DNA of 64,000 bases from positions 1 through 64,000 of the forward strand of contig NZ_NADJ01000032.1 of NCBI RefSeq assembly GCF_002196705.1, read 5' to 3'. The notes beneath the pieces were generated by a model. It saw only the letters and a list, made by a program, of their open reading frames with translations. It was not told the origin of the DNA and ran no database searches. Both the position numbers and the translations under genes were made by a program. The DNA comes from Desulfosporosinus sp. FKB (lineage in GTDB: Bacteria; Bacillota; Desulfitobacteriia; Desulfitobacteriales; Desulfitobacteriaceae). This document shows positions 2,339 to 46,199 of the stretch, one piece after another (the stretch's first letter is position 1; every line of letters begins with the position of its first letter).

Positions 2339-2523
2339 ACGTTATAAGCACATCAATGCAGTCCTATGCGACATGATGCCAGTACAATTGCCGTAATAAT
2401 TAGCGGTTTGCGTTTATTAAGACAAAGTTGAGTGAATTGACGTTCTATATAGCCTTTTTTCTGCAAGGATTTAATAAAAATATCATTTAACTTGAATATC
2501 AAAATATATGATTACAAAAGTTA

Positions 2524-2553
2524 TTGACCGAATAGTACTAAGTATGATATATT
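2524..2553 (+). promoter_or_regulatory. Candidate promoter of the feo operon
   Basis: TTGACC (2524-2529) and TATATT (2548-2553) are spaced by 18 nt and lie just upstream of the Fur-box-like palindrome and the feoA SD. Assigned by eye only. Confidence 0.5.
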
Positions 2554-2556
2554 TTA

Positions 2557-2595
2557 TTACGTAATTGAGAATGAATTTCAATACCAATTACGTAA
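2557..2595. promoter_or_regulatory. Fur-box-like site inside an 11-bp perfect inverted repeat
   Basis: TGAGAATGAATTTCA (2566-2580) matches the 7-1-7 Fur consensus TGATAATNATTATCA at most positions. It is framed by perfect arms TTACGTAATTG (2557-2567) and CAATTACGTAA (2585-2595). Its position just downstream of a candidate -10 and before feoA makes iron-dependent repression by a Fur-family protein the natural reading (inference). Confidence 0.6.
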
Positions 2596-2622
2596 CTAAC
2601 TAATTTATAGGAGGGGTTTCAA

Positions 2623-2886
2623 ATGGAAAAAGAAAATACGGCGACCCCAAGGTTATCGTCATCAGGGCATGTACTACCGCTGAGCATGGTACACGCCGGG
2701 GAATGTGTCAAGGTTAAGTCGATTTCCGGTAAGGATGATATAAGGCGTTTTCTCAGCAACATAGGTTTTGTGGAAGACACTGAGGTAACCGTTGTTTCAG
2801 AGATGAACGGGAATGTCATTGTAAACGTGAAGGGAACAAGAGTGGGGATCAGCAAGTCGATGGCCAACCGTGTGCTGATCGTTTAA
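2623..2886 (+). CDS. feoA: FeoA-domain ferrous iron transport protein (first copy)
   Basis: A small cytosolic SH3-like FeoA protein thought to modulate the FeoB permease. At 87 residues it is longer than the usual ~75 because of a polar N-terminal extension of about 15 residues. The FeoA core (VKSISGKDDIRRFLSNIGFVEDTEVTVV...GTRVGISKSMANRVLIV) follows. The SD GGAGGGG precedes the ATG. It is the first gene of a feoA-feoA-feoB-Cys-rich peptide operon, next to a Fur-like site. Its exact function relative to the second FeoA is unknown. Confidence 0.9.
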   Translation: MEKENTATPRLSSSGHVLPLSMVHAGECVKVKSISGKDDIRRFLSNIGFVEDTEVTVVSEMNGNVIVNVKGTRVGISKSMANRVLIV

Positions 2887-2915
2887 CAACCAGACTAATA
2901 CTTGGAGGGGAAATT

Positions 2916-3137
2916 ATGAAAACGCTTAAAGAAATCAAACCGGGAGAAACCGTAATCGTCACTGCTTTCACAGTATTCGGCGCACTGCGTCGTCGTCTCA
3001 TGGACATGGGTATTACAAAAGGAACACAGATCTACGTGCGGAAGGTAGCACCTCTTGGCGACCCGATTGAAATCACCGTTCGCGGCTACGAGCTTTCCCT
3101 ACGCAAGGATGAGGCACAAAATATCCAGGTGGTCTAA
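2916..3137 (+). CDS. feoA: FeoA-domain ferrous iron transport protein (second copy)
   Basis: A second FeoA of 73 residues, the usual length, with the core LKEIKPGETVIVTAF...RRRLMDMGITKGTQIYVRKVAPLGDPIEITVRGYELSLRKDEAQNI. The SD GGAGGGG precedes ATG. It lies 29 nt after the first feoA and 55 nt before feoB. Paired feoA genes upstream of feoB are known in several Firmicutes. It presumably interacts with FeoB at the inner face of the membrane. Confidence 0.95.
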   Translation: MKTLKEIKPGETVIVTAFTVFGALRRRLMDMGITKGTQIYVRKVAPLGDPIEITVRGYELSLRKDEAQNIQVV

Positions 3138-3192
3138 AAAGGGCACAATTATTTAAGAGTAAAGTAATTAACTCTGTAAAGGAGAAGACACG

Positions 3193-5343
3193 ATGGCAAT
3201 TAAAATCGCACTAGCCGGAAACCCAAACTGCGGCAAGACAACCATGTTCAACAATCTGACGGGCAGTAACCAATATGTGGGCAATTGGCCGGGTGTAACT
3301 GTAGAAAAAAAGGAAGGAAGGCTTAGAGGACATAAAGATGTAATCGTCACAGACCTTCCTGGGATCTATTCTCTTTCTCCATACACACTGGAAGAGGTCG
3401 TCAGCCGTAATTATCTGGTGAATGATCGTCCCGACGCTATTATCAACCTAGTGGACGGCACTAACCTTGAGCGGAACCTGTACTTGTCGACGCAGATAGT
3501 GGAATTGGGCATTCCAGTTGTGATTTCGTTGAACATGATGGATATCGTCAGAAAGACCGGTGACAGGATTGATTCTCAGAAACTTGGAGCGGCCTTAGGC
3601 TGCGAAGTTGTGGAAACCGCCGCAATCAAAGGTGAAGGTTCCATGGAAGCAGCGGAAAAGGCTATCCAACTCGCTAAAGTAAAACAGGACTCCGTTCCTC
3701 AGCACAAGTACAGTAAACGGCTTGAGCAAGCTCTTTCCGCTATTGCGGAGACCTTCAAGGATGTTTTGGATCCGCAGCGTGCACGCTGGTATGCTGTCAA
3801 GCTTTTTGAACGGGATGGGAAGGTTTTGAAAGCCCTCCAATTGTCTTCGGTACAAAGGAACAAGCTGGAAGGGCTCATTGCTCCCGTCGAAGAGGAATAC
3901 GGTGATGACAGTGAAACCATCGTCACCAACGAAAGGTATGAATACATTGCCGAACTGATGAAGAGCAGTGTTATGAAAAAGCAGAAGACTATGACAGCGT
4001 CGGATAAAATCGATCGTATTGTCACTAATCGCTGGCTTGCTCTGCCGATCTTCATCGCAATTATGTTTTCCGTATACTATGTTTCAGTTACTTCACTTGG
4101 GACTATAGTAACCGATTTTACCAACGACACTCTTTTTGGTTCATGGATTCAGCCGGCAGTGGATACCTGGCTCACCAATATCGGTACGGCAGATTGGCTT
4201 GTGCGTCTCATCATCGATGGAATAATCGGCGGACTGGGGGCAATGATCGGCTTTGCGCCGCAAATGGCAATTCTATTTGTATTTCTTTCCATTCTGGAAG
4301 AGTGCGGCTACATGGTGCGCATTGCTTTTATCATGGATCGTATTTTTCGTAGATTCGGCCTGTCCGGCAAAAGTTTTATCCCACTGTTGATTTCCTCGGG
4401 CTGTGGTGTGCCGGGCATCATGGCAACCAAGACAATTGAAAATGAAAAAGACCGCCGCATGACCATCATGACCACTACGTCCATTCCTTGCGGCGCAAAG
4501 CTGCCGGTTATTGCGCTGATTTCGGGAGCAATCATGGGCGGCTCTTGGTGGATGGCTCCTTCAATGTATTTTATCGGAATTCTTGCCGTCATTGTATCCG
4601 GCGTCATGCTAAAAAAGACAAAGCTATTTGCCGGCGATCCATCTCCGTTTGTAATGGAACTTCCTCAATACCATATTCCGGCGGTAAAAAATGTATTGTT
4701 TCATGTTTGGGAGCGTGTCGGGAGTTTCTTGAAAAAGGCAGGCACTGTATTATTTCTTGCCGTCGTCGTGATGTGGTTCCTTGCAAGCTATGGTATAAAA
4801 GATGGCCGTTTCGGTATGGTTGACCAGGGGCATAGCCTGATAGCGATTATTGGTGGCTTTTTAGCTCCGATCTTTACTCCGCTTGGTTTTGGCAATTGGA
4901 GGGCGGTAGCTGCATCATTTTCCGGCTTTATCGCCAAAGAAGGAATTGTCAGCACGATGGGCGTTCTTGTTGGTATGGCTAATTCAGGTGACAACGATGC
5001 AGGACTTTGGTCAGCTGTTATGACAATGTTCCCCAGTGCAGTGGCCGCATTCTCGTTCCTTCTTTTCAATCTGCTCGATTCACCGTGCATCGCGGCAATG
5101 AGTACTATAGCCAAAGAGATGAACAGCAGGAAGTGGACTGCCATTGCTCTCGTTTATCAGAATTTGTTTTCTTACTGCATTGCCCTGATGGTCTATCAGT
5201 TTGGGAGACTGTTTACCGGCGCTCCTTTGGGCGGAGGCACGATTGCTGCATTTACGATACTTCTCTTTATGCTGTATCTGTTGTTCCGGCCGACACCTAA
5301 ACAAAAAGCAGTTCTGAGCCGGGCAGTAGGTGCAGACGCGTAG
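3193..5343 (+). CDS. feoB: Ferrous iron transport GTPase/permease FeoB
   Basis: The main Fe(II) uptake permease. The N-terminal cytosolic G domain of the 716-residue protein has G1 GNPNCGKTT (9-17), G3 DLPG and G4 NMMD, followed by a helical GDI-like region. The membrane part has two Gate-type halves with conserved SGCGVPG and SIPCGAKLP segments. The length is normal and the SD (AAGGAG) is good. It follows two feoA genes and precedes a Cys-rich peptide, the usual Feo layout of anaerobic Firmicutes. Likely Fur-controlled. Confidence 0.97.
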   Translation: MAIKIALAGNPNCGKTTMFNNLTGSNQYVGNWPGVTVEKKEGRLRGHKDVIVTDLPGIYSLSPYTLEEVVSRNYLVNDRPDAIINLVDGTNLERNLYLSTQIVELGIPVVISLNMMDIVRKTGDRIDSQKLGAALGCEVVETAAIKGEGSMEAAEKAIQLAKVKQDSVPQHKYSKRLEQALSAIAETFKDVLDPQRARWYAVKLFERDGKVLKALQLSSVQRNKLEGLIAPVEEEYGDDSETIVTNERYEYIAELMKSSVMKKQKTMTASDKIDRIVTNRWLALPIFIAIMFSVYYVSVTSLGTIVTDFTNDTLFGSWIQPAVDTWLTNIGTADWLVRLIIDGIIGGLGAMIGFAPQMAILFVFLSILEECGYMVRIAFIMDRIFRRFGLSGKSFIPLLISSGCGVPGIMATKTIENEKDRRMTIMTTTSIPCGAKLPVIALISGAIMGGSWWMAPSMYFIGILAVIVSGVMLKKTKLFAGDPSPFVMELPQYHIPAVKNVLFHVWERVGSFLKKAGTVLFLAVVVMWFLASYGIKDGRFGMVDQGHSLIAIIGGFLAPIFTPLGFGNWRAVAASFSGFIAKEGIVSTMGVLVGMANSGDNDAGLWSAVMTMFPSAVAAFSFLLFNLLDSPCIAAMSTIAKEMNSRKWTAIALVYQNLFSYCIALMVYQFGRLFTGAPLGGGTIAAFTILLFMLYLLFRPTPKQKAVLSRAVGADA

Positions 5344-40405: not shown

Positions 40406-40969
40406 GTGAATCTGACAAAATTTATTTCTTCGGAAAAAACTTTAGTGGGGTTAGTAGCACTCATCGCTATAGGCATGTCCTTTATCTATTTGGGCAAGGG
40501 TCCGGAAAATCCTCTGCCCAAAACGCAAGCCGTGCCTACAAGCTCGATGATAGCAGCCTCGGGTTCGAAAATCACTGCTTTGGAAAAGGAATTAGAGAAC
40601 AAACTTCAAGCTAATTTATCATTAATGGATGGTGTGGGTAAAGTTCAGGTATCCGTGAGTTTAGCAACGGGACTAAAGACCGAATATGCCCGCAATCAAA
40701 ATGTTACGAAGAACACGTCTAAAGAGACGGATAAAACAGGAGGAACTCGGGAAACAACACAGGTTACGGAGAACAATCAGGTAGTTATGCCCAATGGTTC
40801 CTCTCAGCCGGTTATGATGATGGAAGACCGTCCTGAGGTTGCCGGAGTACTGGTAATTGCCGAAGGGGCTCGTGATCCCAAGGTAAGGGAAGCGATTCAT
40901 ACGGCAGTTCAAACTCTCTTGAGTATTCCCAGTGCCAAAATTACTGTGGTTCCAATGGGGGGAGAATGA
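40406..40969 (+). CDS. spoIIIAG: Stage III sporulation protein AG
   Basis: A 187-residue bitopic protein. After one N-terminal helix (LVGLVALIAIGMSFIYLG) it has the ring-forming domain (LQANLSLMDGVGKVQVSVSLATGLKTEYARN...RPEVAGVLVIAEGARDPKVREAIHTAVQTLLSIPSAKITVVPM), which in B. subtilis assembles a large ring in the intermembrane space. GTG 40406 follows GGAAGGGGG. Confidence 0.93.
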   Translation: MNLTKFISSEKTLVGLVALIAIGMSFIYLGKGPENPLPKTQAVPTSSMIAASGSKITALEKELENKLQANLSLMDGVGKVQVSVSLATGLKTEYARNQNVTKNTSKETDKTGGTRETTQVTENNQVVMPNGSSQPVMMMEDRPEVAGVLVIAEGARDPKVREAIHTAVQTLLSIPSAKITVVPMGGE

Positions 40970-40970
40970 T

Positions 40971-41540
40971 GTGAAGAGTAAGCTGCGCAAGCCTCTGATT
41001 ATTATAAATAATTTTCTGCAATTATGGAGAGTATTGGGATTGGCTGCCTGTTTAGTCATAATTTTTGGGGCGTTATGGGTTTGGTCTAATAGCCCGCGGC
41101 ATGTAGATACAGCGAAGCTAACAGCCCAGTCTTCTTCACCACTTGTTGATTCTTCAATTAAAATCCAATATGAGACTATTCAGCCGGACGGAACCGGAGA
41201 AAACTATTTTGTAAATTATCGTTTAAAGAGAGATCAGTTTCGGCAGGAAACGAAATCAATGATCTCAGAATTGCTGGATTCAACGGTGGAAAAAACTAAG
41301 ATTCAAGCCCAGGAACAATGGCTGACACTTAGTTCGAAAATCGAAAAAGAAGATGAAATTGAAAATCTTTTAAAGATCAAGGGATTTAAAGATCTTGTGA
41401 CAGATGTCTGCCCAGATAATGTAACAGTGATTGTTTATGCTTCAGGTTTAACACCTAACGAAATCAGTATTATCCAAGAGGTTGTTGTGCGAGTTACAAA
41501 TGTAAGATTGGATAAGATTATGATATCAACAAAACAGTGA
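40971..41540 (+). CDS. spoIIIAH: Stage III sporulation protein AH
   Basis: A 189-residue bitopic protein with helix VLGLAACLVIIFGALWVW and an EscJ/PrgK-like extracytoplasmic domain (NYFVNYRLKRDQFRQETKSMISELLDSTVEKTKIQAQEQWLTLSSKIEKEDEIENLLKIKGFKDLVT) that should pair with SpoIIQ. GTG 40971 follows GGGGGAGAATGAT, one base after the spoIIIAG stop. In B. subtilis accB follows directly; here a receiver gene and a fused accB follow. Confidence 0.92.
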   Translation: MKSKLRKPLIIINNFLQLWRVLGLAACLVIIFGALWVWSNSPRHVDTAKLTAQSSSPLVDSSIKIQYETIQPDGTGENYFVNYRLKRDQFRQETKSMISELLDSTVEKTKIQAQEQWLTLSSKIEKEDEIENLLKIKGFKDLVTDVCPDNVTVIVYASGLTPNEISIIQEVVVRVTNVRLDKIMISTKQ

Positions 41541-41665: not shown

Positions 41666-42025
41666 ATGAAAAGAATCTTAATCGCGGATGATGCTAGTTT
41701 TATGCGCTTAATGATCGGCGAAATTCTAGCACGTAAAGGTCTACCCGAAACTTTAGAAGCTGAAAACGGTTTACAAGCTGTTGAGCTCTTTAGAACTTAT
41801 AGACCTATTTTAACGATTTTGGATATTACCATGCCAGAGCTTGACGGTCTGGCTGCACTTGAGGAAATATTAAAGATTGATCCCTCAGCCCGAGTAATCA
41901 TTTGTAGTGCTGTAGCCAGTGAAGCTACGGTATCTGATGCCTTACAGCGGGGAGCGGCAGATTTTATTTCAAAACCTTTCCGTCCGGATGAACTGCTGCG
42001 AATTGTGAAGAAGTACCTTGAATAA
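41666..42025 (+). CDS. CheY-like stand-alone response regulator
   Basis: A 119-residue receiver without output domain: ILIADDASFMRLMIGEIL (acidic pair), phosphoacceptor in LTILDITMPELDGL, ICSAV (Ser) and SKPFRPDEL (Lys). The pattern is that of CheY-type regulators. ATG 41666 has a GGAG 11 nt upstream held in a small hairpin. It is inserted between spoIIIAH and the accB-type gene, with a terminator after it. Partner kinase is unknown; a chemotaxis or a sporulation role are both possible. Confidence 0.85.
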   Translation: MKRILIADDASFMRLMIGEILARKGLPETLEAENGLQAVELFRTYRPILTILDITMPELDGLAALEEILKIDPSARVIICSAVASEATVSDALQRGAADFISKPFRPDELLRIVKKYLE

Positions 42026-42298: not shown

Positions 42299-44215
42299 GT
42301 GAAACCGATTAAAATTACAGATACGACACTAAGGGATGCTCATCAAAGCCTTTGGGCTACTCGTATGCGTACAGAGGATATGCTGCCGATTTTAGAAGAA
42401 CTGGACGAGGCAGGGTATTTTTCTTTGGAAGTATGGGGAGGAGCAACCTTTGACGTTTGTCTGCGATTTCTAGGTGAAGATCCTTGGGAACGCCTGCGGG
42501 AGATTAAACGTCGCGTTCGTAAGACTCCCTTACAAATGCTGCTTAGGGGGCAGTCCCTGGTAGGTTATCAACACTATCCTGATGATGTGGTACGAGAGTT
42601 TGTCTCTCTCAGCGTTAAAAACGGCATTGATATTGTTCGGATTTTTGATGCACTTAACGACGTAAGAAATATGGTTGTTCCCATGGAAGCGGCTAAAAAG
42701 GCAGGAGCTCATGTACAAGCATCTGTTGTTTATACCATGAGTCCTGTACACACCATTGATCATTATCTGGAAACTGCCACAGCCCTTGCGGAACTGGGTG
42801 CGGATTCCATCTGTATAAAGGATATGGCTGGACTTTTGACGCCCTTTAAAGCTTACGAGTTAGTTTCCCTCCTGAAAAAGAAGCTAGGAATTATGGTTCA
42901 TCTACACAGCCATTATATTGGCGGGATGGCTGTCGGAGCTTATTTAAAGGCTGCAGAAGCCGGCGTTGATGTCATCGATACGGCGAGTGTCCCATTAGCT
43001 TTTGGAGCAAGCCAGCCACCTGTGGAAACAGTAGTTCGGGCTTTTCAAGATTCCGACTACGACAGCGGTTTAAATCTTAGACATTTGTTCCATATTTCGA
43101 AGTACTTCGAAGCTTTGCGTAAAAGCCGTGGTTTTGAACGTGGGATCACACGAATTACAGATATGCGGGTTTTTGAACATCAAGTTCCTGGCGGAATGAT
43201 CTCGAATTTGGTCTCTCAATTGGAAGAGCAAAGGGCCCTTGACCGTATTCATGACGTGTTGGAGGAAATTCCTAAGGTTCGGGCAGAGTTAGGCTTTCCG
43301 CCTCTGGTTACCCCTACAAGTCAAATTGTTGGAACTCAGGCTGTATTAAATGTTCTGAGCGGGGCAAGATATAAATTAGTGCCTGGTGAAGTAAAGGCTT
43401 ATGTTCGTGGCCAATATGGCCGTCCGCCGGCTCCAATGAATCTTGACATACAGAAAAAAATCATTGGTGACGAGGAGCCTATGACTGTACGTCCGGCAGA
43501 TAGTCTAGAACCGGGGATGGAGAAAGCCAAACGGGATAGTATAGGGTTAGCCAATTCCCCGGAGGATGTTATGAGTTTTGCTATGTTTCCTCAAATCGCC
43601 AAGAAGTTTTTTGAAGATAGAAAAAAGGGCATTCTTCCTAACAGGGAAATTCAAACTGGCACCAATGTGTCTAAAGAAACAAAGGCTGCGAGTGAACTAT
43701 GGAAGACGGGATTATCTAAGGAGGATTTAAAAATGAACTTGAAAGAAATTAAAGAATTAATTAAGATAATCGACGAGACGGAGATAAGTGAGTTAAATCT
43801 GGAAAGTGATGGTGTAAAAATAGCTATTCGCAAGGGAGTAAACCCGCAATCTTGTGTCCCGGTTGCTGCACCTGTCCGGCAGGAGGTTAAAACAAGTGCT
43901 GCGGTGAGTCCCAATGTCCAGGCTGAGGTAAGCAGCGAAGTACCTCTTGTTTCTTCGGATATAGCAAAGCAGGAAAATATTGAAACCATAACCGCTCCCA
44001 TGGTGGGAACGTTTTATCATGCTTCAGCACCTGATGCAGCCCCTTTTGTTGAAGTAGGACAGCAAATCAGCATCGGTCAGCCTGTTTGTATTATTGAAGC
44101 TATGAAACTGATGAATGAAATCGAATCGGAAGTGGAAGGAAAGTTACTTGAAATTCTTGTCGAGAACGGGCAACCGGTTGAATATGGTCAGCCACTGTTT
44201 ATCATTGAAAAATAA
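42299..44215 (+). CDS. Pyruvate/oxaloacetate carboxyltransferase fused to biotin carboxyl carrier protein
   Basis: A 638-residue protein. Residues 3 to ~455 are an HMGL-like carboxyltransferase (OadA/PycB): [54 protein letters not shown] (metal-binding His) and [11 protein letters not shown]. From Met479 a complete AccB-like unit follows: [27 protein letters not shown], a Pro/Val linker and a biotinyl domain with EAMKLMNE (biotinylated Lys603). AccC is directly downstream. It probably forms a two-subunit pyruvate carboxylase (or oxaloacetate decarboxylase alpha). GTG 42299 follows GAGAGGGG. In-frame SD and ATG at residue 479 may give free AccB. Confidence 0.9.
43718..43735 (+). promoter_or_regulatory. 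Internal SD and start codon for the AccB-like part
   Basis: AAGGAGG (43718-43724), 8 nt, then ATG (43733-43735) in frame with the larger gene. Translation from here gives 160 residues beginning [17 protein letters not shown], the normal beginning of bacterial AccB. Confidence 0.65.
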
Positions 44216-44226
44216 GGAGTAGAGGC

Positions 44227-45573
44227 ATGTTTAAAAAAATCCTGGTTGCAAATCGAGGAGAAATTGCCCTTCGTGTCATTAGGGCCTGTCATGAACTGGA
44301 TATTGAAACTGTCGCCGTGTTTTCTGAAGGAGATCGAGAAGCTTTACACGTGAAGGCCGCAGATGAGGCGGTGTGCGTGGGACCGGTTGCAAGCTCGAAA
44401 AGCTATTTGAATATTCCTAATATCATCAGTGCGGCTGAATTAACAGGTGTTGATGCGATTCATCCCGGTTATGGTTTTTTGTCTGAAAACGCTCGTTTTG
44501 CCGAGATTTGTGAGTCTTGCGGAATAACCTTTATTGGACCATCCTCGCAAGCCATAGAGATGATGGGCGATAAGGCCATAGCCCGAAAAACTATGATTGA
44601 TTCAGGAGTACCGGTTGTTCCGGGGTCAAAAGACATTATTAAAGATCTGCGAATGGCCGAAACTGTTGCCGAAAGTATCGGATATCCGGTTTTAATAAAA
44701 GCCTCAGCAGGAGGCGGGGGTAAAGGAATGCGAGTTGCTCAGAACGTTAAGGAGCTGAGTAAAGCAATTCAAGCTGCCCAAACGGAGGCTCAGGCGGCTT
44801 TTGGCAACTCTGATGTTTATCTGGAAAAATATGTTGAAGAACCCAGGCATATTGAAATTCAAATCCTGGGGGATAAATATGGTGAAGTTGTACATCTGGG
44901 AGAAAGAGATTGCTCTCTGCAGCGCCGTCACCAGAAGCTCTTGGAAGAATCACCGTCCAGCGCCATAACTCCTGAATTACGGGCTAAAATGGGTGCGGTT
45001 GCTGTGAAAGCTGCCAAATCGGCAAATTACTCCAATGCCGGGACCATTGAATTTTTGCTGGATCGCCATGGTAATTTTTATTTTATCGAAATGAACACCA
45101 GGATCCAGGTTGAGCACCCGGTCACAGAACTTGTAACAGGCCTTGATTTGGTGAAAGAACAAATCCGCTTAGCAACAGGAGAACCATTAGGCTATACTCA
45201 GGCGGATATTGAAATTCGCGGCTGGGCCATTGAGTGCCGAATTAATGCTGAGAATCCAGACAAAAATTTCATGCCTTCACCGGGTACTCTGAAACTGTAT
45301 CATGCTCCCGGAGGGCCGGGAGTCCGGGTGGACAGCGCTGCTTATCAAGGTTATGCAGTCTCCCCTTACTACGATTCTATGGTTGGAAAACTGATCGTTT
45401 GGGGGGCTACCAGACAGGAAGCTATCCAGAGGATGAAACGTGCCCTTGAGGAATTTGTAATTGAAGGAATTCATACTACCATACCATTTCATTTAAAAGT
45501 TTTAGAGAACGCCTTTTATCGGCGCGGCGAAGTTTATACGAATTTTATTCAGCGCCGTATTCTTGGAGAATAG
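44227..45573 (+). CDS. accC: Biotin carboxylase
   Basis: The ATP-grasp enzyme that carboxylates carrier-bound biotin with bicarbonate. The 448-residue protein has [26 protein letters not shown], the glycine-rich ATP loop [12 protein letters not shown], the HIEIQILGD and [12 protein letters not shown] motifs, and [14 protein letters not shown] with the catalytic Arg. SD AAGGAG precedes ATG, 11 nt after the carrier gene. It can serve either acetyl-CoA carboxylase or the carboxyltransferase fused upstream. Confidence 0.96.
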
Positions 45574-45803: not shown

Positions 45804-46199
45804 GTGGAAAGTCTTGAAACGGAGAACTCCCTGGGGTCCATCCGTATCGCTGATGAAGTTGTGGAGGTCATTGCTGGCTTAGCAGCTTCTGAGGTTGAGG
45901 GTGTCGTTGGTATGAGCGGAGGTTTTGTAGGGGACCTTGCGCAAATGTTAGGACGAAATAAAAATTTATCCAAAGGGGTTAAAGTCGAGGTTGGCGAACA
46001 CGAGGTTGCCGTAGATCTCTTTATTGTTGTGGAGTATGGAGTATCGATTCCGGAAGTCGCTTATAAGGTTCAAGAGGCCGTTAAGGATGCCATTGAAAGT
46101 ATGACAGGACTTAGGGTTGTGGAAGCAAATGTACATGTTCAAGGGGTTAACTTTAAACCGGTATCGGAAAGTAAAGAAGAAGACTTCCGTCTGAAGTAA
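45804..46199 (+). CDS. Asp23/Gls24 family envelope stress protein
   Basis: A 131-residue Asp23/Gls24 (DUF322) protein: GSIRIADEVVEVIAGLAASEVEGVVGMSGG at the start and VDLFIVVEYGVSIPEVAYKVQEAVKDAIESMTGL...VNVHVQGV. Family members coat the inner membrane through AmaP, encoded next, and respond to envelope stress. GTG 45804 follows GGGAGG. It corresponds to yqhY, which follows accC in B. subtilis and has been linked to acetyl-CoA carboxylase homeostasis. Confidence 0.95.
   Translation: MESLETENSLGSIRIADEVVEVIAGLAASEVEGVVGMSGGFVGDLAQMLGRNKNLSKGVKVEVGEHEVAVDLFIVVEYGVSIPEVAYKVQEAVKDAIESMTGLRVVEANVHVQGVNFKPVSESKEEDFRLK

Follow-up and report, generated by a model that had tools for sequence, protein, structure and literature searches.

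A probable nested accB gene with a conserved internal start inside a carboxyltransferase-AccB fusion gene of Desulfosporosinus

Two-subunit pyruvate carboxylases carry the biotin carboxylase (BC) on one chain and the carboxyltransferase (CT) with the biotin carrier (BCCP) on the other, according to the accessible parts of PMC5059739 and of a review (PMC8100219). In enzymes of the Methylobacillus flagellatus kind, a BT-like domain lies between the CT and the carrier, and the holoenzyme is alpha2beta4 (PMC5059739, same part). According to the accessible part of Lombard and Moreira 2011 (PMC3199775), BCCP and pyruvate-type carboxyltransferases have fused and separated many times. Short proteins can also be encoded within longer genes. 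In type I-B systems, Cas11b results from internal in-frame translation within cas8b (PMC11899642, accessible part).

The window of this study is the whole stretch of DNA that was analysed, 64,000 nucleotides from Desulfosporosinus sp. FKB. One of its open reading frames (ORFs) encodes a CT joined to a complete AccB and seems to contain a second, internal start. As far as the accessible text on the M. flagellatus enzyme goes, the two arrangements are alike in having the biotin carboxylase as its own chain and the CT and the carrier together on the other. The differences are that the carrier here is of the AccB type, that a linker and then AccB's N-terminal domain appear to fill the region between CT and carrier, that the gene has a putative internal start, and that the AccC of the acc locus would supply the biotin carboxylase. 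With Cas11 and cas8b, as described in the accessible part of that report, the locus shares a single ORF, an in-frame internal start and a short C-terminal product equal to the end of the long product. However, the long form here would be a metabolic enzyme and the short form apparently an essential subunit of a different enzyme, acetyl-CoA carboxylase (ACC), with no defence function. The order accB, accC, Asp23-family gene is common to the window and the accBC-yqhY operon of Bacillus subtilis (PMC5437119, accessible part). Of these two loci, a carboxyltransferase is joined in frame ahead of accB in the window alone. Genes in which a conserved internal start yields a C-terminal subunit are already known; the use proposed here, to join pyruvate carboxylase and acetyl-CoA carboxylase, is new as far as we found. 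We found no description of a nested accB in the accessible parts of the literature searched, which lay mostly outside subscription journals. The accessible part of the Heliorestis genome paper gives both carboxylases without remark on the gene (PMC7143216).

The fusion gene and its surroundings

The features of the locus, all on the forward strand, are as follows.

40932..41540, +, ORF in the place of spoIIIAH (name from the original prediction and by position)
42299..44215, +, whole fusion ORF, GTG start, 638 aa, carboxyltransferase plus AccB
42299..43732, +, PycB/OadA-type carboxyltransferase (HMGL-like and PYC_OADA; Pfam PF00682, PF02436), residues 1-478
43646..43732, +, linker of low confidence, probably disordered, bearing the putative internal ribosome site, residues 450-478 (AlphaFold2 pLDDT below 50 at 450-480)
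43718..43724, +, internal Shine-Dalgarno sequence (SD) AAGGAGG, 8 nt 5′ of the internal start
43733..43735, +, internal start codon ATG, AccB Met1, in frame with the fusion ORF
43733..44215, +, nested accB, 160 aa (N-terminal domain, linker, biotinyl domain; TIGR00531)
44105..44107, +, biotin-accepting lysine of EAMK, fusion residue 603, AccB residue 125
44227..45573, +, accC, biotin carboxylase, the next gene (TIGR00514, 754.2 bits against a cut-off of 626.5)
45804..46199, +, Asp23-family-like ORF in the place of B. subtilis yqhY (assigned by position)

The original prediction had placed a complete AccB at residues 479-638 and an AAGGAGG, with 8-nt spacing, before an in-frame ATG at 43733. 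Both statements held. The BCCP model TIGR00531 matched residues 479-638 over its full length (positions 1-156 of 156) with 168.4-172.7 bits against a cut-off of 115.2, and the SD was confirmed at 43718-43724. The nested AccB also aligned from its Met1 to the AccB chain 4hr7_B. The motif E600-A601-M602-K603 (EAMK) was invariant across 31 aligned fusions; we take its lysine K603 to be the biotin acceptor. The duplex energy of the internal SD was -12.0 kcal/mol, compared with -8.7 kcal/mol at the ORF's own start.

An AlphaFold2 model based on 31 sequences had a mean pLDDT of 76.9 and a pTM of 0.69. The CT domain was mostly well predicted, with residues 283-302 below 50. It was followed by a stretch below 50 (450-480), the AccB N-terminal helix and strands, a low stretch (513-556) and the biotinyl domain, in which the loop 601-605 was below 50. 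In this predicted structure, the internal start is at a domain boundary.

By position, we take the ORFs at 45804..46199 and 40932..41540 to be the counterparts of yqhY and spoIIIAH, respectively. The B. subtilis operon presumably also lies beside the spoIIIA genes, as in the window. An ORF that we named by eye as a CheY-like receiver (window 41666-42025) lies between the gene in the spoIIIAH position and the fusion. A matching stretch in one related locus (L052) was just 33% identical, and we saw no such stretch in L073, L080 and L091.

Conservation of the internal start

We compared 131 fused ORFs, namely the window's, 49 rows of its class and 81 from other genomes of its phylum. They represent at least 33 family groups and 130 genomes including the window's; these are the strongest matches listed, and weaker fusions lie outside the set. 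Every one has at least 357 open codons ahead of AccB. Before counting, we dropped L125, L128, L130, L134-L136, L141, L142, L144 and L145 as duplicates, L107 for a run of N, and L116, L117 and L118 as partial or divergent matches. L119 and L120 are outside the second set of loci.

A start codon (ATG, GTG or TTG) stood at AccB residue 1 in 127 of the 131 ORFs, compared with a mean of 89.4 and a maximum of 99 in synonymous-codon shuffles. The residue itself varied (75 Met, 31 Leu, 24 Val and 1 Ser), and the codons were ATG in 75 ORFs, TTG in 28, GTG in 24, CTG in 2, CTA in 1 and AGT in 1. Thus, all 24 Val codons were GTG and 28 of the 31 Leu codons were TTG. A start together with an exact SD match of at least 5 nt was found in 120 of the 131 ORFs; in 200 synonymous-codon shuffles, the mean was 38.5 and the maximum 48. 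The remaining eleven rows comprised seven start codons with a 4-nt SD match, three shifted starts and L092. The shifted starts, each with an SD, were an ATG one codon upstream in the two CTG rows and a GTG three codons upstream in the AGT (Ser) row. L092, with CTA, was the single truly startless row. Among the other in-frame ATG, GTG and TTG codons of the same ORFs, 393 of 5350 had an SD of at least 5 nt. The SD occupied two reading frames (110 and 13 rows), and the amino acids that it encoded differed (KED, AGG and others). It paired better than the ORF's own SD in 99 of 128 cases and equally in two, with medians of -11.7 and -10.0 kcal/mol.

The fused sequences are related by descent and the 131 rows are not independent, so we also counted events on a tree. 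On a FastTree tree of the CT part, we counted a minimum of 21 changes of the residue-1 codon. One parsimony reconstruction kept 18 of the 21 within ATG, GTG and TTG; the other three led to CTG, CTA and AGT. We also compared residue 1 with the other columns of the codon alignment. Among 77 variable columns made mostly of M, V, L and I, residue 1 had 97% start codons, the next column 69% and the 95th percentile was 53%. In 127 of the 131 ORFs, the mRNA around the junction had less structure than the gene median, which the A/G-rich linker codons alone could cause. When the window stretch was folded by itself, its local RNA structure was not unusual (z -0.22).

The shuffles, the column comparison and the tree ruled out a chance origin of the start and SD. 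A recent fusion or an assembly error in the window's genome was ruled out by the presence of the arrangement in 130 genomes. The internal start and SD are conserved as nucleotide signals, and their retention in relatives, which was a proposed check, extended far beyond the genus. The original prediction that an oadA/pycB-type gene had become joined to an accB keeping its own initiation site was supported, with an amendment: the junction is not recent, being found in at least 33 family groups and in metagenome-assembled genomes (MAGs) labelled Actinomycetota.

These MAGs came from a scan of named genomes, in which we inspected the best 80 loci and did not count as AccB fusions those whose AccB match began after residue 19 or was missing. 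At least 20 of the 80 had a complete-length AccB fusion with an in-frame start at residue 1 or one codon after it. L269, with an ATG and a 5-nt SD one codon past residue 1 and accC behind, was counted as start-bearing. The start-bearing loci included MAGs titled Actinomycetota, Coriobacteriales, Eggerthellales, Subteraquimicrobium and Aquicultor, the last two of which we place in Actinomycetota. At least L247, L248, L251 and L252 overlap with the set of 131. L260 had no exact SD of 4 nt or more, and L253, L255 and L261 had 4 nt only. Two start-bearing loci, L257 and L266, passed TIGR00531. In L268 (Candidatus Aquicultor primus, 2493-3789), the AccC match was in two pieces 64 bases apart, which may reflect an insertion or a sequence error.

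Ten other loci among the best 80 (L263, L264, L270-L275, L283 and L295) were fusions with an AccB-like end that had no internal start with an SD. They came from Actinomycetota and Thermoleophilia, PVC, Bacteroidales and other MAGs. Up to ten codons from the junction, none of the ten had an in-frame start with a 5-nt SD. The AccB match of L275 began 19 residues in and that of L283 17 residues in, so that residue 1 was extrapolated in both. The accC gene followed all 19 start-bearing named loci with downstream room (L254 lies at a contig edge) and none of the ten startless fusions. Three startless carrier ends were scanned against the TIGR00531 cut-off of 115.2; that of L263 passed (127.4), and those of L270 (110.2) and L295 (91.2) were below. 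The startless carrier ends thus seemed less clearly AccB by these scores.

Within the set of 131, accC was directly downstream of 129 fused ORFs. The two misses were L092 and L183, the latter at a contig end. L092 is one of two fusions in the draft genome G024. The other, L052, lies with spoIIIA genes, accC and Asp23 genes and keeps the SD and start. L092 has none of these neighbours, and reads AAGGAAG and CTA. G024 has an estimated contamination of 7%, and L092 may derive from another organism than L052. That L092 is without both the start and accC holds in either case. The same draft contained a stand-alone AccB-like ORF (L113 1965-2495, G024:C41) with ETLK replacing EAMK, possibly decayed or specialised. 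It was followed by a match to the last 25 AccC residues only, and its neighbours resembled ketoacyl synthase and condensation enzymes.

Carriers and carboxylases in the fused genomes

A separate accB elsewhere in the genome had been named as evidence against the original prediction. In a profile search of the window's genome, we found no second AccB above the TIGR00531 cut-off. Two other matches were below it (39.1 and 34.3 bits), in the frame of a 1157-aa pyruvate carboxylase and in a 106-aa frame. Biotin/lipoyl-type matches outside the fusion were the end of the same pyruvate carboxylase, the 106-aa frame, which has a PF01039 gene nearby, one frame of 399 aa and three weaker matches. AccA and AccD are encoded on another contig and need a BCCP. 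As the fused AccB is the sole protein that passed TIGR00531, it is the only evident carrier for acetyl-CoA carboxylase in this genome. The search for biotin carboxylases in this genome gave AccC, the only stand-alone one, and the pyruvate carboxylase. Across the 130 fused genomes, 125 had one AccB match only: 46 of 49 in the class (at 1e-8) and 79 of 81 outside it (at 1e-10).

The CT side matched a model of pyruvate carboxylase subunit B. The model PRK09282 (NF006761), a domain-type model of wide scope, scored 800.7-881.9 bits against a cut-off of 402. Two equivalog models of the same name were below their cut-offs (PRK14041, 627.4 against 734; PRK14042, 545.8 against 1182). The oadA model TIGR01108 missed its cut-off (731.5 against 756.5 bits), and transcarboxylase 5S missed it by far (523 against 827). 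The CT part aligned to 5ks8_C, 2nx9_A and 1rqb_A, and the sequence match to 5ks8_C, which we take to be the M. flagellatus two-subunit pyruvate carboxylase, ended near residue 448. D13, R83, Q85, K174, H203 and H205, as well as the biotin lysine K603, were invariant among 31 aligned fusions. D13, K174, H203 and H205 were aligned with 5ks8_C and 1rqb_A, and we assume that they are metal ligands and the carbamylated lysine. A single PYC_OADA match, taken as the fusion, was found in 89 of the 130 fused genomes (24 of 49 in the class and 65 of 81 outside it); this count includes G038, which has two matches in one frame, and some genomes are incomplete. Judging from the conserved residues and these counts, it is very likely that the long form is catalytically active, and many genomes would have no other candidate pyruvate carboxylase of its kind. 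The fusion is not the sole possible pyruvate carboxylase of the window's genome, which also encodes the separate single-chain enzyme of 1157 aa. Because of this second enzyme, the role of the long form in the window's genome is uncertain, and it may be redundant or different.

An AccA match better than 1e-20 was absent in 19 of the 93 fused genomes searched, and these 19 were among the 81 fused genomes outside the class. We had predicted a loss of the internal start wherever AccA is missing. This prediction failed, as all 19 kept it. All 19 also encoded FabD and a PF01039 carboxyltransferase (L327-L356). FabD uses malonyl-CoA. Genomes without AccA therefore still appear to need malonyl-CoA, which fits, without proving, an ACC that uses a different carboxyltransferase. 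Near the PF01039 genes of these genomes, a biotin-carrier motif was close by in seven of ten loci inspected, as in methylmalonyl-CoA decarboxylase clusters. L329, L340 and L344 had no such motif near the PF01039 gene within the stretch inspected. In the genomes without AccA, either an MmdA-like protein may act as the ACC carboxyltransferase or the free AccB may be used otherwise.

One congeneric draft genome, G012, differed from the others. It had no fused CT, and its sole PYC_OADA match was in a 1156-aa frame. Its accB stood alone behind accD-accA (L057 60-2521, G012:C317) and was 90% identical to the fused AccB of L059. About 20 nt before its ATG were as in the fusion junctions, SD included. 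We regard this accD-accA-accB order as an apparent relocation of the nested gene; G012 is one draft of 970 contigs with 7% estimated contamination, and a misassembly is possible.

Proposed products and alternative readings

We consider it likely, from the sequence comparisons, that the locus is a nested in-frame gene that encodes both a CT-AccB fusion and a free AccB for acetyl-CoA carboxylase. Initiation at GTG 42299 would give the 638-residue protein, in which a flexible linker connects a PycB/OadA-type carboxyltransferase to a complete AccB. Ribosomes recruited by the AAGGAGG within the linker codons would begin at ATG 43733 and give a free AccB of 160 residues. AccC would carboxylate the biotin of the long and the free form alike. 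Together with AccC, the long form would most likely be a two-part pyruvate carboxylase that converts pyruvate to oxaloacetate. The free AccB with AccC and AccA/AccD, or with another CoA carboxyltransferase in some lineages, would most likely form acetyl-CoA carboxylase. That both proteins are made, that they have these enzymatic roles, that they share AccC and that anaplerosis is thereby coupled to fatty acid synthesis is what we infer from the genes.

If both products are made, an apparently essential gene of fatty acid synthesis is hidden inside another gene in a very large bacterial group and would go unnoticed if one looked for accB as a separate ORF. It would be a metabolic counterpart of the Cas11-type nested subunit, for which the apparent natural loss in L092, the apparent relocation in G012 and the startless fusions offer ready controls. 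One could then ask whether a shared biotin carboxylase links anaplerosis to lipid synthesis. A more far-reaching version is possible but doubtful. The double start might be ancient and predate the divergence of the Bacillota and Actinomycetota lineages in which it occurs. One mRNA might set the ratio of pyruvate-carboxylase-type to acetyl-CoA-carboxylase-type carriers. The long and short AccB might share AccC, perhaps in mixed complexes formed through the AccB N-terminal domain, and the supplies of oxaloacetate and malonyl-CoA might compete for one biotin carboxylase.

Other readings of the internal signal were weighed against the same data. Possibly the long fusion alone is made, and its AccB domain serves its own carboxyltransferase as well as AccA/AccD; the internal SD would then be a relic of a separate accB. 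The fused AccB is complete, and the linker that holds it was predicted with low confidence, which could allow the carrier to reach further partners. However, a relic would decay, yet the start and SD are kept across at least 33 family groups while the residue varies among Met, Leu and Val, and it was L092, the copy without an adjoining accC despite downstream room, that lost both. We regard this reading as very unlikely. It is hardly credible that the SD-like sequence acts as a translational pause, without new initiation, that aids the folding of the carboxyltransferase before AccB emerges. Such a pause would suit the position of the SD in the inter-domain linker, but it needs no ATG, GTG or TTG at a fixed spacing, whereas the identity of the start codon is strongly constrained. 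Furthermore, the ten startless fusions join a CT to an AccB-like end, and none of them has an in-frame start with a 5-nt SD near the junction.

The remaining readings concern the functions of the products. The free AccB might be made but serve chiefly the pyruvate carboxylase complex, as an additional component or stoichiometry partner, like Cas11 in Cascade, and not ACC. The retention of the internal start in all 19 genomes without AccA and the accC gene adjoining 129 of 131 fusions are consistent with this. Nevertheless, all of those 19 genomes have FabD and a PF01039 carboxyltransferase, the accB of G012 stands behind accD-accA where the CT is absent, and 125 of 130 fused genomes had no second AccB match at the thresholds used. 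These observations make such a partner role quite unlikely. It is also possible, although unlikely, that the long form works as an oxaloacetate decarboxylase, or as the pyruvate half of a transcarboxylase with an MmdA-like partner, with the free AccB acting as proposed. OadA and transcarboxylase 5S, too, are close to its CT in sequence. The PF01039 gene near a small carrier frame in the window's genome and the MmdA-like genes with carriers in genomes without AccA could provide such a partner. However, the CT was below the cut-offs of TIGR01108 and 5S and above that of PRK09282, and a biotin carboxylase gene adjoins it. To our knowledge, carboxylases have a biotin carboxylase and decarboxylases do not. 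A two-part pyruvate carboxylase together with a free AccB for acetyl-CoA carboxylase is the reading that we prefer.

We also looked for intermediates in which an unfused CT and accB lie side by side. A CT was present in none of the 54 unfused rows within the fetched stretch. The only adjacent unfused case seen was on plasmid pNK84 of Caballeronia sp. NK8 (L377 2486-5898). It has a carboxyltransferase (pycB, 489 aa), AccB and AccC in the same order as the window, but as three separate adjoining genes, with 30 bases between pycB and accB and no fusion.
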